The position numbers were made by a program, and so were the translations under genes. The notes below the pieces were generated by a model. It was not told the DNA's origin. It saw only the letters and a program-made list of their open reading frames with translations, and searched no databases. 64,000 nucleotides of DNA from Propionibacteriales bacterium. Its GTDB lineage: Bacteria > Actinomycetota > Actinomycetes > Propionibacteriales > Nocardioidaceae. The stretch is taken from NCBI GenBank assembly GCA_026392465.1, contig JAPLCA010000030.1:1-64000 (forward strand), given 5' to 3'. Shown here piece by piece: positions 54,632-60,585 of the stretch (position 1 is its first letter; the number at the start of each line of letters is the position of its first letter).

Positions 54632-55601
54632 GTGGAGCACCCCCTCCTGCGGGCCGCGACGGTCCCGCTCATGCTGCTGGTCGGCGCCCTCATCACCCTG
54701 CAGTCCCGGGTCAACGGATCGCTCGCCGGCCAGCTCGGGGAGGGTCTGCGGGCGGGCGCCCTGGCCGCGGTCGTCAGCTTCGGCAGCGGGCTGCTCCTGC
54801 TGAGCGTCGTCGTGCTGTCGCACCCACGCCGCCGCGCCGGCCTGCGCCGCGTCCTCGACGCGCTGCGCGACCCCGCCGCCGGCGGCGACCGGCCGCGGCT
54901 GCGGCCCGTGCACCTGCTCGGCGGGCTGGGCGGGGCGTTCTTCGTGGCGTCCCAGGGCATCGCCGTCGGCGTCATCGGCGTGGCCCTGTTCATCGTCGCG
55001 TTCACGGCGGGTCAGTCGGTGGCGTCGCTCGTGGTCGACCACGTGGGCCTCGGTCCGGGCGGGCACGAGCCCGTGTCGCGGCCGAGGGCCGTGGCGGCCC
55101 TGTTCGCGGTGGCCGCCGTCACCGTCAAGGTCCTCGGCGACCTCGACGGCAGCCACCTGGGGCTGTCGCTGCTGCTCGCCTCGCTCGCCCTCGTGGCGGG
55201 ATGCCTCCAGGCGGTGCAGCAGGCCTTCAACGGCAAGATCTCCGCCATCGGCGGGCCGCTGGTGACCACCTGGAACAACTTCCTGGTCGGCACGTCGGCG
55301 CTCGTCGTGCTGCTCCTCGTCAGCCTCCTCGTGCCGGGGGGACGTCGACGGGTTCCCCACGCAGTGGTGGTACTACGTCGGCGGTGTACTCGGCATCGGC
55401 TTCATCGCCATCTCCGCGGTCACGGTGCAGATCCACGGCGTGCTGGTGCTCGGGCTCTGCTCGATCGCCGGCCAGGTCGTCGCGGCGGAGGTCATCGAGG
55501 TGCTCGACCCCTCCGTCGAGGTGTCGTGGCTGGGGCTGCTGGGCGGTCTGCTGGCCGTCGTCGGCGTGGTCGTCGCGCTCGCGACACGGCGCCGCACCTG
55601 A
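54632..55601 (+). pseudogene. DMT (DUF606/YdcZ-like) permease interrupted by a one-base frameshift
   Basis: Frame 1 encodes the first four-fifths of a ten-helix DUF606-type transporter (LMLLVGALITLQSRVNGSLA, FFVASQGIAVGVIGVALFIV, AVQQAFNGKISAIGGPLVTT). At a run of six G (55336-55341) the reading frame is lost. In the neighbouring frame the rest of the protein continues perfectly (FPTQWWYYVGGVLGIGFIA, VLGLCSIAGQVVAAEVIEVL) to TGA at 55599-55601. Removing one G restores a full-length protein. Either a recent mutation or a sequencing/homopolymer error. Confidence 0.85.
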
Positions 55602-55610
55602 CCGCTTGTC

Positions 55611-55633
55611 CTATCTCACTTGTGAGATAGCCT
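55611..55633 (+). promoter_or_regulatory. Palindromic operator overlapping the -10 of the HTH-MurA gene
   Basis: CTATCTCAC (55611-55619), TT, GTGAGATAG (55622-55630): perfect 9-bp arms. The -10-like hexamer TAGCCT (55628-55633) overlaps the right arm and ends 6 nt before GTG 55640, so the transcript is probably leaderless. The most likely binder is the XRE domain encoded immediately downstream. Confidence 0.65.
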
Positions 55634-55639
55634 GGTCGG

Positions 55640-57175
55640 GTGAGCGCACGCGACGACTACCTGGCCCGTATCGGCACCCTCATCCGCGACGCCCGTCAGC
55701 ACAGTGGACTGACGCAGTCAGAGCTGGCGACGGAGCTGCGGACCAGCCAGAGCGCGGTGAACCGCATCGAGAAGGGCCAGCAGAACCTGACGCTGGAGAT
55801 GATCGCCCGGATCGGCACCGCCCTCGACTCCGAGATCGTGAGCGTCGGCACGTCCGGCCCCAGCCACCTGCGGGTCAAGGGCGGCACGCAGCTGTCGGGC
55901 GCGATCGACGTGAAGTCGAGCAAGAACGCCGGGGTCGCGCTGCTGTGCGCCTCGCTGCTGAACGAGGGCACCACGATCCTGCGCAAGGTCGCGCGGATCG
56001 AGGAGGTCAACCGGCTGCTCGAGGTGCTGTCGTCTATCGGCGTCCGCACCCGCTGGCTCGGCGACGATGGCGACCTCGAGCTGGTCGTCCCCGCCCAGCT
56101 CGACCTCGCCGCCATGGACGAGACCGCGGCCCGACGCACCCGCAGCATCATCATGTTCCTCGGCCCCCTGATGCACAGGGTCGACCAGTTCGAGCTGCCC
56201 TACGCGGGAGGCTGCGACCTCGGCACCCGCACCGTCGAGCCGCACATGACGGCGCTGCGCCCCTTCGGGCTGAAGGTCGTCGCGACCGAGGGCAGCTACC
56301 ACGTCGACGCCGCCCGCGGCGTCGGTCCGGAGCGGCCGATCGTGCTCACCGAGCGCGGCGACACCGTGACCGAGAACGCGCTGCTCGCGGCCGCGCGGTA
56401 CGACGGGGTCACCGTCATCCGCAACGCGAGCCCGAACTACATGGTGCAGGACCTCTGCTTCTTCCTGGAGAAGCTCGGCGTCGGCATCGAGGGCATCGGC
56501 ACGACGACGCTGCGCGTGACCGGCAAGCCGCGGATCAACACCGACGTCGACTACGCGCCGAGCGAGGACCCGATCGAGGCGATGAGCCTCATCGCCGCCG
56601 CCATCGTCACCCAGTCGAGCATCACGGTGCGCCGCGTGCCCATCGAGTTCATGGAGATCGAGCTGGCGCTGCTGGAGGAGATGGGCTTCCGCTACGACCG
56701 CAGCACCGAGTACGCGGCCGAGAACGGCCAGACCCGTCTGGTGGACATCACGACGTACCCCTCGGAGCTGCGGGCACCCATCGACAAGGTGCACCCGATG
56801 CCCTTCCCGGGGCTCAACATCGACAACCTGCCGTTCTTCGCGGTCATCGCGGCGACCGCGCAGGGCCAGACGCTGCTGCACGACTGGGTCTACGAGAACC
56901 GCGCGATCTACCTGACCGAGCTGAACAAGCTCGGCGCCCGCGTCAAGCTGCTCGACCCCCACCGCGTGCTGGTCGACGGTCCGACGCACTGGAGCGGCAC
57001 CGAGATCGTGTGCCCGCCCGCGCTGCGGCCCGCCGTCGTCATCCTGCTCGCCATGCTGGCGGCGAAGGGCACGTCGGTGCTGCGCAGCGTCTACGTGATC
57101 AACCGCGGCTACGAGGACCTCGCCGAGCGCCTCAACGCCCTGGGCGCCCAGATCGAGACCTTCCGCGACATCTGA
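55640..57175 (+). CDS. XRE-HTH/MurA-like (UDP-GlcNAc enolpyruvyltransferase) fusion
   Basis: A 511-residue fusion. Residues about 6-65 are an XRE/Cro HTH (LIRDARQHSGLTQSELATEL, SQSAVNRIEKGQQNLTLEM). Residues about 72-511 are an EPSP/MurA domain (HLRVKGGTQLSGAIDVKSSK). The MurA lysine (Lys95, SSKNAGVAL) and the catalytic loop cysteine (Cys192, AGGCDLGTRT) are kept, as are NIDNLPFFAVIAATAQGQ and a final RGYEDLAERLNALGA. The usual FPTDxQAQ motif is replaced by YAPSEDPIEAMS, so substrate handling may differ from MurA of peptidoglycan synthesis. It may be a regulator sensing a cell-wall precursor, or an enzyme with self-regulation. Confidence 0.88.
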   Translation: MSARDDYLARIGTLIRDARQHSGLTQSELATELRTSQSAVNRIEKGQQNLTLEMIARIGTALDSEIVSVGTSGPSHLRVKGGTQLSGAIDVKSSKNAGVALLCASLLNEGTTILRKVARIEEVNRLLEVLSSIGVRTRWLGDDGDLELVVPAQLDLAAMDETAARRTRSIIMFLGPLMHRVDQFELPYAGGCDLGTRTVEPHMTALRPFGLKVVATEGSYHVDAARGVGPERPIVLTERGDTVTENALLAAARYDGVTVIRNASPNYMVQDLCFFLEKLGVGIEGIGTTTLRVTGKPRINTDVDYAPSEDPIEAMSLIAAAIVTQSSITVRRVPIEFMEIELALLEEMGFRYDRSTEYAAENGQTRLVDITTYPSELRAPIDKVHPMPFPGLNIDNLPFFAVIAATAQGQTLLHDWVYENRAIYLTELNKLGARVKLLDPHRVLVDGPTHWSGTEIVCPPALRPAVVILLAMLAAKGTSVLRSVYVINRGYEDLAERLNALGAQIETFRDI

Positions 57176-57239
57176 CCGTCGTCGCCGGGGCCGCGCGGCG
57201 CACCCGACACTGGCCCCGTGGCGGGCTAGCGTGGTCGGC

Positions 57240-58025
57240 GTGTCCCCGCACCCCTACCTCGACGCGCCTCTCCCCCTCGCGCTCGCGCACCGCGGAGGCG
57301 CCGGACTCCCGGTGAACGACGGCATCGAGAACACCCTGACGGCGTTCCGCAACGCCGTGGGCCTCGGGTACGTCTTCCTGGAGACCGACGTCCACGTCTC
57401 GGCCGACGGCGTCGTGTACGCGTTCCACGACGAGCACCTCGGGCGTATGACCGGTGTCGAGACGCCGATCGCGGCGCTGACGTCGGCCGAGATCGACCGC
57501 GTGCCCATCGCCGGCCGCGAGCCGGTGCCCCGTCTCGCCGACCTCCTCGCGTCGCTGCCCGACGCCCGGTTCAACATCGACGTCAAGGCCGACGGAGCCG
57601 TGGAGGCGACCGTGCGGGTCGTGCAGGAGGCCGGGGCGCAGGCGCGGGTGTGCCTGGCGTCGTTCTCCGGGGCCCGCCTCGGCCGGCTCCGCGCGCTGTG
57701 CCCCGACGCGGCCCGTTCGGGCGGCCCGCTCGAGATCGCCGCGCTCAAGCTCGGCCCGACCCGGTGGCTCCGGCGGCTCGCGGCACGTCGCGGCGTGCAC
57801 TGCGTGCAGGTGCCCGTGCGACGCGGACCGGTCACCGTCGTCACGCCGCGCTTCGTCCGGCGCGCGCACGAGACCGGCCTGCAGGTCCACGTCTGGACCG
57901 TCGATGACCCCGCGGAGATGAGAACGTTGCTCGAGATCGGCGTCGACGGGATCGTCACCGACCGGCCCGACGTCCTGCGCGACGTCCTGGAGGAACGAGG
58001 AAGCTGGCCCGATGAGCATCGCTGA
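57240..58025 (+). CDS. Glycerophosphodiester phosphodiesterase
   Basis: A 261-residue GDPD TIM-barrel enzyme hydrolysing glycerophosphodiesters to glycerol 3-phosphate and an alcohol. Catalytic motif ALAHRGGAGLPVNDGIENT (His-Arg...Glu-Asn) near the N-terminus, ETDVHVSADGVVYAFHDEHL with metal Glu/Asp and second His, NIDVKAD, and VHVWTVDDPAEM near the end. No signal peptide, so cytoplasmic. GTG 57240 follows TAGCGT (57227-57232) by 7 nt. Overlaps the MFS gene start by 14 nt. Confidence 0.9.
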   Translation: MSPHPYLDAPLPLALAHRGGAGLPVNDGIENTLTAFRNAVGLGYVFLETDVHVSADGVVYAFHDEHLGRMTGVETPIAALTSAEIDRVPIAGREPVPRLADLLASLPDARFNIDVKADGAVEATVRVVQEAGAQARVCLASFSGARLGRLRALCPDAARSGGPLEIAALKLGPTRWLRRLAARRGVHCVQVPVRRGPVTVVTPRFVRRAHETGLQVHVWTVDDPAEMRTLLEIGVDGIVTDRPDVLRDVLEERGSWPDEHR

Positions 58026-59775: not shown

Positions 59776-60585
59776 TCAGCGGGGCTCGCGCCCCGCGTCG
59801 GTCGACGACCCGAGACCCCGGCCCGGCGCCGGGGTCTCGCCGTGTCCGGGGGCGATCCGGCGTGCGCGGCGGCGGTGGCCCGGGACGAGCCGCGCCAGGC
59901 CCCACAGCGTGACGCGCCAGAGCGCCTCCCGGACGATCGAGGAGCTCATCTTCGACGTGCCGAGCTCCCGCTCGACGAACGTCACCGGCACCTCCACGAC
60001 CCGCAGGCCCGCCTCGTGGACGCGGCGGGTCATGTCGATCTGGAAGCAGTAGCCCTGCGACGCCACACCCGCGACGTCGATACGACGCAGCGTGTCGGAG
60101 CGGAACGCGCGGAACCCGGCCGTCGCGTCGTGCACGGGCAGCCCGAGCGCGAGCCGTGCGTAGAGCGTGCCCCCACGGGAGATCAGCCGTCGGTACCACG
60201 GCCAGTTGACGACGGAGCCGCCGGCGACCCAGCGCGACCCGATGACGAGGTCGGCCGTCCGGGCGGCCTCGACGAGCGAGTCGAGCTCCTCCGGCAGGTG
60301 GGAGCCGTCGGCGTCCATCTCGACGAGCACGTCGTACCCGCGCTGCAGGCCCCAGGCGAAGCCGGCCCGGTACGCGACGCCGAGGCCGGCCTTGCCGCTG
60401 CGGTGCATCACGTGGACCCCAGGGTCCGTCGCCGCCACCTGCTCGGCGAGGTCGCCCGTGCCGTCGGGCGACGCGTCGTCGACCACGAGCACGTCGGCGT
60501 CGGGCACCGACGTGCGCAGACGCTGCAGCACCCCCGGGAGGCTGTCCGCCTCCTCGTAGGTCGGCATGACGACCAGGACCCTCAC
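59776..60585 (-). CDS. ppm1: Polyprenol monophosphomannose synthase (GT2)
   Basis: A 269-residue GT2 enzyme moving mannose from GDP-mannose to polyprenol phosphate. LVVMPTYEEADSLPGVLQRL, VVDDASPDGTGDLA, the DADGSH motif (about residues 90-95) and TAGFRAFRSDTLRRID are DPM1-typical. A basic tail follows (RRRARRIAPGHGE). Overlaps the lnt stop by 4 nt. In mycobacteria the two activities are fused in one Ppm1; here they are separate, coupled genes. The end of the gene hosts the rbpA terminator. Confidence 0.93.
   Translation of the reverse strand: MRVLVVMPTYEEADSLPGVLQRLRTSVPDADVLVVDDASPDGTGDLAEQVAATDPGVHVMHRSGKAGLGVAYRAGFAWGLQRGYDVLVEMDADGSHLPEELDSLVEAARTADLVIGSRWVAGGSVVNWPWYRRLISRGGTLYARLALGLPVHDATAGFRAFRSDTLRRIDVAGVASQGYCFQIDMTRRVHEAGLRVVEVPVTFVERELGTSKMSSSIVREALWRVTLWGLARLVPGHRRRARRIAPGHGETPAPGRGLGSSTDAGREPR
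59779..59839. terminator. Two hairpins after rbpA, inside the 3' end of ppm1
   Basis: GCGGGGC/GCCCCGC (59779-59785 with 59790-59796) and CGAGACCCCGGC/GCCGGGGTCTCG (59811-59822 with 59828-59839, 5-nt loop). The stronger second hairpin lies within the coding sequence of the convergent ppm1 gene and can stop rbpA transcription. Confidence 0.7.

Follow-up and report, generated by a model that had tools for sequence, protein, structure and literature searches.

Trigger enzymes such as PutA, BirA, NadR and PepA are enzymes that carry a repressing DNA-binding domain, an arrangement resembling that of the protein described here, and for PutA the target is one region only, the putA-putP spacer (PMC8249747). 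In Escherichia coli, the operator of HipB has the consensus TATCCN8GGATA (21-bp oligonucleotide CTATCCCCTTAAGGGGATAG; PMC3376134). In Streptomyces, murA2 encodes one of the two MurA proteins of S. coelicolor (PMC12161575), is a BldM-WhiI target with a footprint containing the motif TGnnCCGnnCGGGTGA (PMC4125116), has been reported as SigB-dependent (PMC8346170) and, when overexpressed, did not reproduce the whiI overexpression phenotype (PMC11005364); the excerpts of these four papers contain no mention of a helix-turn-helix (HTH) domain in MurA2 or of autoregulation of its gene. Here, we analyze a gene that joins an XRE HTH domain to MurA, together with the palindrome directly in front of it, in a 64,000-nucleotide stretch (64 kb; hereafter, the window) of contig JAPLCA010000030.1 from an Aeromicrobium genome of 3.69 Mb that is 99.97% complete.

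Our analysis indicates that this fusion is likely an active MurA that represses its own gene through its own XRE domain, that is, a trigger enzyme with a single target. The computed features on which this reading is built are the fusion itself, its conserved residues, the lack of any other MurA found in the window genome and in most sampled genomes of the family, and a conserved, usually single operator. The Streptomyces fusion, probably murA2 (SCO5998 / sven5810 / vnz_28735), belongs to the same group of proteins, and the fusion of S. violaceoruber has the same HTH-MurA architecture and operator as that of the window. Among the papers listed by the literature searches, and in PMC12565409, which was examined for the motif, none was seen to describe the fusion or the control of its gene by its product, which is not proof of absence.

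The fusion protein and the MurA inventory

The gene and its parts are located as follows.

55640-57175, forward strand: xre-murA fusion gene, GTG start, open reading frame of 511 amino acids
55682-55831, forward strand: XRE HTH domain, residues 15-64 (Pfam HTH_3)
55835-55855, forward strand: linker, residues 66-72, probably flexible (predicted local distance difference test score, pLDDT, below 50 in the model)
55865-57163, forward strand: MurA domain, residues 76-508 (NF006873 match, residue mapping and structure match)

An earlier reading of the sequence alone, the first-pass annotation, had described an XRE HTH joined to a complete MurA fold, and the family models agree with it; the gene and palindrome were also placed correctly. 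Pfam HTH_3 covers residues 15-64 with 45.3 bits (cut-off 23) and HTH_31 also matches the N-terminus (39.9 vs 27), so that both models assign the protein to the XRE regulators, while EPSP_synthase covers residues 79-498 with 153.5 bits (cut-off 22.8). The NCBIfam model NF006873, which represents uridine diphosphate N-acetylglucosamine (UDP-GlcNAc) 1-carboxyvinyltransferase, is passed over residues 76-508 (317.9 vs 297). An AlphaFold2 model of the protein, confident overall with a mean pLDDT of 85.9, consists of four N-terminal helices, predicted at residues 3-22, 26-33, 37-44 and 52-62, followed by the linker and the MurA body; by its position, we take the helix at about residues 37-44 to be the recognition helix. 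When the model was searched against the PDB, MurA structures occupied ranks 1-41 among the 50 matches listed, with TM-scores of 0.87-0.92 by target length.

Comparisons beyond the window genome draw on 120 loci, namely 40 from genus genomes and 80 named loci, the best among 575 relatives in a scan of the genome collection, which together give 111 unique sequence contexts; some genomes are counted twice among the 120. Of 42 genus positions, 40 were taken (G022 and G030 were left out), and the loci also exclude G029 and G032-G035, where the gene is cut or lies near a contig end, and G039, where it was not found. The genomes of 35 of the 80 named loci were checked for a canonical MurA, and 29 of those 35 were scanned genome-wide for the operator.

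The window genome contains two PF00275 proteins, the fusion and AroA. The AroA protein scores 349 bits on PF00275 but 27 bits on the MurA model, which leaves the fusion as the only MurA found there. The same holds for the genus, where no MurA passes the TIGR01072 cut-off in any of the 39 genomes with a completeness of 90% or more, an unusual situation given that 354 of 396 genomes in a sample of the phylum have one that does. Within the family (196 sampled genomes, at least 90% complete), the fusion is present in 191 at E-values up to 1e-100, and a canonical MurA in 29, all of which also have the fusion; the remaining 167 have no canonical MurA at E-values up to 1e-60, a limit that short fragments would escape. 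The fusion is consequently the sole MurA found in 162 of the 196, and the five genomes with neither form are fragmented assemblies of 170-540 contigs. Because MurB is present in all 13 genus genomes checked, the MurA step of the pathway appears to be needed, and we infer by elimination that the fusion must supply UDP-GlcNAc enolpyruvate in organisms without another MurA.

The search for a second canonical murA that the first-pass annotation had proposed thus gave none in the window genome, whereas 15 of the 35 named-locus genomes, all from other genera, have one over the cut-off (Streptomyces 7, Brachybacterium 4, Kribbella 2, Kitasatospora 1, Actinopolymorpha 1). None was detected over the cut-off in the other 20, which comprise 12 Nocardioides, 6 Aeromicrobium, 1 Mumia and 1 Nocardioidaceae bin. 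Aeromicrobium and the Nocardioides genomes checked (12/12 named) therefore seem to rely on the fused form of MurA alone. Across the genus labels of the family (g240, g246, g248, g251, g255, g256), a canonical MurA stands beside the fusion in some genera and was not found in others, a patchiness that implies that the canonical gene was lost or gained several times.

To assess the enzyme part, E. coli MurA was mapped onto 121 fusions (the window and the 120 loci) and 43 positions were tabulated. Eleven residues, K22, N23, R91, C115, R120, H125, D231, D305, R331, R371 and R397, are identical in 121/121 fusions; they correspond in the window to K95, N96, R168, C192, R197, H202, D310, D395, R421, R463 and R489, and we take them to have the catalytic and ligand-binding roles of the mapped MurA residues. 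The retention of Lys95 and Cys192 noted at first pass is borne out by this mapping. The accompanying statement that the FPTDxQAQ motif is altered to YAPSEDPIEAMS needs correction: YAPSEDPIEAMS aligns with the VLPDRIETG region of E. coli MurA, with Asp310 in the place of Asp231, and was rejected as the FPTD loop, the true equivalent of which is GLNIDN at residues 391-396. This loop contains Asp395, the invariant counterpart of E. coli Asp305. Since the eleven residues are kept in every fusion, the protein is probably an active enzyme despite some diverged positions in the nucleotide site. Overall, sequence identity is 27.4% with E. coli MurA and 29.5-34.5% with the nine canonical MurAs from actinobacteria in the alignment.

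A side observation concerns three of these nine canonical proteins (L196, L197, L198; from Kribbella and Actinopolymorpha), which have Asp at the Cys115 position, where all 121 fusions have Cys. We presume this position to be linked to fosfomycin sensitivity, and the canonical and fused MurA of one cell in these two genera might differ in that sensitivity.

Related HTH-MurA fusions, which the first-pass annotation had thought possible, occur in the 191 family genomes mentioned above and in Brachybacterium, Kribbella, Actinopolymorpha, Kitasatospora, Nonomuraea and Streptomyces. Among the best 80 of 575 relatives, the genera are Aeromicrobium, Mumia, Nocardioides, Brachybacterium, Kribbella, Actinopolymorpha, Kitasatospora and Streptomyces, with identities to the window fusion of up to 92% in Aeromicrobium and 76-78% in Streptomyces; none outside Actinobacteria was found among the matches listed. 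In a tree of 38 MurA domains, a single branch with 100/100 support separates off the 28 fusions used (out of 121); support is poor for 12 of the 35 inner branches of this tree, and its E. coli row is long. The Brachybacterium fusions (L084, L087-L089; 81-84% identity to the window) lie near those of Aeromicrobium in this tree, at poorly supported forks; the two genera belong to different orders, and acquisition by horizontal transfer is possible. Four of the plasmid matches listed (15 of 92 records; 60 of 114 matches) covered the HTH. By identity, two are true fusions, from Streptomyces sp. BHT-5-2 and Nonomuraea gerenzanensis (76%), and two were rejected as ordinary MurAs, from Methylobacterium (H4, an open reading frame of 429 amino acids) and Paenibacillus (H9, with an annotated murB beside murA). 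The phage matches listed (10 of 41) were MurA-only, with identities of at most 31.5%.

The candidate operator and its promoter

The elements in front of the gene are the following.

55611-55630, no strand: candidate operator, perfect 20-bp palindrome CTATCTCACTTGTGAGATAG, with the core TATCTCA-N4-TGAGATA at 55612-55629
55606-55611, forward strand: putative -35 element TTGTCC, read from the sequence, abutting the operator and 16 nt before the -10 element
55628-55633, forward strand: -10 element TAGCCT (TANNNT), whose TA also closes the operator core

The perfect palindrome reported in front of the gene at first pass, CTATCTCAC-TT-GTGAGATAG, proved to be the sole match in the window at up to 3 mismatches, and 1 of 100 shuffled controls contained a match. 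In the window genome, it is the only match to the core with fewer than 3 mismatches; three further places appear when 3 are allowed, all of them with exactly 3, and the reversed-pattern control gave 2 forward matches vs 4. An additional regulon was rejected because these extra places are near the control level.

Over the 120 upstream regions, where the best match was taken from a stretch that begins about 120 bases before the inferred start and ends 40 bases after it, the core has 0 mismatches in 58 loci, 1 in 57, 2 in 4 and 3 in 1. At most one of the 14 core positions therefore differs in 115/120 loci, so that a palindrome stands at the gene's own promoter, as looked for in an XRE regulator. 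Among the 111 unique contexts, the information content is 1.6-2.0 bits in core columns 1-6 and 12-17 and does not exceed 0.8 over the 25 preceding bases, and the left arm is as well conserved as the right. In one Aeromicrobium locus (L077), both arms have changed in step to TATCGCA..TGCGATA, a compensated substitution.

These patterns bear on the simplest alternative, that the palindrome arose by chance or reflects plain conservation of the promoter. The right end of the operator does double as the TA of the -10 element; however, the -10 does not explain the equal conservation of the left arm, nor would either version predict a site that is unique at fewer than 3 mismatches in 3.69 Mb. The column conservation, together with scans of the window genome, 49 genus genomes and 29 others, refutes this alternative, to which we assign virtually no probability.

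In those scans, a site with up to 1 mismatch is present in 44/49 genus genomes (exactly one in 42/49) and in 27/29 named genomes of other genera (exactly one in 26/29), including Streptomyces genomes of 7.6-10.5 Mb. It lies at the fusion gene in every genome with a match, 44/44 in the genus and 27/27 in other genera, and the reversed pattern matched in 1/49 and 0/29. Additional 1-mismatch sites occur only in G013, G030 and G467. Five genus genomes have no site at this threshold: G009 and G048 have 2-mismatch operators in place (L048 and L050), G022 is probably the named Aeromicrobium whose gene is carried by L077, and G033 and G039 are incomplete, with only the C-terminal end of the fusion gene found in the former and no fusion match in the latter. 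The two misses in other genera are Brachybacterium EE-P12 (2 mismatches) and Actinopolymorpha (3 mismatches). The presence of the palindrome upstream of orthologues, on which the first-pass annotation had staked its proposal beforehand, is hence seen in eight named genera, usually with one site per genome. On this sequence evidence, the palindrome is a candidate operator, usually the only good copy in the genome, located on the fusion's own promoter.

The window promoter reads TTGTCC, a 16-nt spacer filled by the operator, TAGCCT, 6 nt and GTG. Of 47 Aeromicrobium loci, at least 26 (counted from the 15 commonest words listed) have a TTG word where the -35 element would be, and a strict sigma-70 scan returned no promoter in 55500-57300. 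The overlap of palindrome and -10 described for the window recurs widely, given that a TANNNT element shares the last TA of the operator in 119/120 loci and column +21 is T in 110 of the 111 unique contexts. The distance from the operator end to the start codon is 10 or 11 nt in 108/111 contexts, a count that includes 26 with an in-frame GTG or TTG 2 nt past the operator followed by ATG at 11 nt. Because the window start codon is only 6 nt past the -10 element, the mRNA is probably leaderless; such spacing is typical of leaderless actinobacterial promoters. A protein bound to the operator should block transcription.

Proposed self-repression and its alternatives

The fusion binding its own promoter is the simplest reading, since the operator tracks the fusion gene across genera while the neighboring genes change. 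For instance, a GDPD gene lies within about 4 kb of the fusion in 45/47 Aeromicrobium and 13/13 Nocardioides loci, compared with 0/48 in Streptomyces, 0/2 in Kribbella and 0/4 in Brachybacterium; the operator stays with the fusion gene and the neighbors of the window do not. The HTH is 85% identical within the genus and 75-79% identical to that of other genera, where the MurA part reaches 90% and 77-86%, respectively, and such identity across genera suggests that the HTH is also under selection. Its best solved relative is C.AhdI (E-value 6.6e-6), and HipB follows at 0.002-0.006. The HipB and window operators have a common 20-bp frame, CTATC...GATAG, with 13/20 identical bases, a likeness that may be due to chance.

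The palindrome could instead be the site of another regulator, with the fused HTH doing something else or nothing. XRE proteins are common, and BldM-WhiI binds this promoter in Streptomyces (PMC4125116). Its motif, TGnnCCGnnCGGGTGA, differs from the operator, however: near matches (at most 3 of 12 mismatches) sit 12-16 bp upstream of the operator in 35/48 Streptomyces loci (among L102-L156), and an equally good match anywhere in the 120 bp upstream was found in only 3/47 Aeromicrobium and 2/13 Nocardioides loci. The BldM-WhiI-like site is thus a separate element neighboring the operator. In addition, the operator accompanies the fusion gene and is rare in the rest of the genome, and to keep a dedicated foreign repressor for this one target would cost more than to have the HTH on the gene product itself. 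We therefore regard another binder as improbable. For Streptomyces, the arrangement suggests developmental activation and self-repression at one promoter, where the predicted self-operator would add an input to murA2 beside the BldM-WhiI site.

Several observations speak against an active, self-repressing MurA. Invariant columns are fewer in the HTH (20/75) than in the MurA part (224/436), and uncompensated arm changes occur at pairs 2, 3 and 6 of the operator in 5, 9 and 7 of the 111 contexts. The fusion misses the stricter MurA equivalog TIGR01072 (300.4 vs 392.7), and only 18 of the 43 mapped E. coli positions are identical in 121/121 fusions. E188, E190, V163 and G164 are altered in all 121 and kept in 9/9 canonical actinobacterial MurAs; the V163/G164 change, in what we take to be a loop of the nucleotide site, is given as aligned, with a one-residue alignment gap at that place. 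Because of these changes and that of the RPVDLH segment to RTVEPH in the window fusion, the nucleotide site is probably not identical to that of canonical MurA. Another XRE protein could in principle bind the operator. In Streptomyces, other inputs to the gene exist, as murA2 is both a BldM-WhiI target (PMC4125116) and SigB-dependent (PMC8346170), and the promoter printed in the latter source does not include the operator.

The diverged nucleotide site would also suit a dedicated regulator in which the MurA domain is only a sensor, an enzyme domain recruited and inactivated in the manner of BzdR. Nevertheless, the eleven key residues are kept in every fusion, and no other MurA was found in the window genome or in 162/196 family genomes with the fusion, which favors an active enzyme over a mere regulator and makes the sensor-only version very improbable. 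The first-pass annotation had offered a self-repressing regulator that senses UDP-GlcNAc or a similar ligand, or a moonlighting enzyme; its idea of self-regulation through the palindrome is strongly supported by the conserved operator, and its lean toward a regulator is not.

For the active, self-repressing MurA, the following mechanism can be proposed. The HTH would bind TATCTCA-N4-TGAGATA as a dimer, and the occupied operator would exclude RNA polymerase, since the site takes up the whole -35/-10 spacer and extends into the -10 of a putatively leaderless promoter. As that promoter appears to be essentially the only target, the circuit would be homeostatic, with excess MurA shutting the gene and scarce MurA opening it. 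The gene may also open when MurA is substrate-bound, closed or inhibitor-bound. This last step leads to a refinement of the proposal rather than an opposing one, in which UDP-GlcNAc, phosphoenolpyruvate (PEP) or the product closes MurA and thereby releases or tightens the HTH, so that transcription follows precursor supply. Such gating would fit the architecture, which the fusion has in common with trigger enzymes, PutA and BirA among them (PMC8249747). The low-confidence, probably flexible linker predicted at residues 66-72 between the domains is consistent with it, as are the retained residues that we presume to bind ligand. On the other hand, no sequence feature for coupling was seen and concentration-dependent autorepression explains the data equally well, so we consider ligand gating almost as probable as its absence. 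A more specific version is tentative: where the fusion is the sole MurA, it may form a one-protein feedback device whose catalytic state (UDP-GlcNAc/PEP-bound, product-bound or fosfomycin-trapped) sets the affinity for a single operator, and a blocked enzyme would raise murA transcription.

These results suggest that a vital enzyme, the one at the start of cell-wall synthesis, controls its own gene in Aeromicrobium and many Nocardioides relatives, as the fusion is the only such enzyme found and the only good copy of the operator usually lies on its own promoter. An actinobacterial group that includes Streptomyces, many of them soil-dwelling, seems to have built transcriptional feedback into MurA, and the prediction is compact: one protein, one 18-bp site, one gene. 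If the tentative version with a state-dependent affinity is true as well, the cell would read the demand for wall precursors with MurA itself, with transcription rising when the enzyme is blocked.

Regarding the surroundings of the gene, Pfam identifies the immediate neighbors as a metallo-beta-lactamase-fold protein, a YdcZ-type transporter, GDPD, MFS and RbpA. The earlier remark that no other cell-wall gene is adjacent holds for these; a family-2 glycosyltransferase lies farther off, at 59776-60585 on the strand opposite to the fusion. The YdcZ-type transporter gene upstream (window 54632-55630) is apparently frameshifted around 55335-55345, where the window has CCGGGGGGACG and the close relatives L062 and L063 have CCGGGGCACG, with one base fewer there; this is either a sequencing error or a pseudogene.

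Comparison with known systems

Canonical MurA (TIGR01072) is matched by the fusion in fold, at the TM-scores given above, and in the eleven catalytic and ligand residues. The fusions differ from it in forming the separate group with 100/100 support and in their extra XRE domain. Streptomyces MurA2 is very probably the orthologue of the window fusion, with the difference that the 7 Streptomyces genomes checked also keep a canonical MurA and Aeromicrobium does not.

HipB-type XRE autoregulators have in common with the fusion the HTH family and the 20-bp operator frame, but the fusion scores below their model (TIGR03070, 48.3 vs 71.65), and no HipA partner was found among the six neighboring genes scanned. 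The model NF006015, which we take to stand for BzdR, a protein whose DNA-binding domain we presume to be XRE-type, gives 27.9 bits against a cut-off of 204, over residues 3-68, the HTH only. HipB binds four sites (PMC3376134), compared with the one found for the fusion. BzdR is similar in having its DNA-binding domain N-terminal to a small-molecule enzyme domain, which is shikimate-kinase-like; it differs in its enzyme fold and in having lost enzyme activity (PMC3602430).

The closest parallel is with the trigger enzymes, whose defining combination of a DNA-binding domain on an intact enzyme is found in the fusion at the level of sequence. Unlike those listed at the outset, the fusion unites an XRE domain with an enzyme of cell-wall synthesis and apparently targets its own promoter alone. 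It would therefore represent a new case of the trigger-enzyme kind, placed at an essential step of cell-wall synthesis and carrying a one-site prediction.

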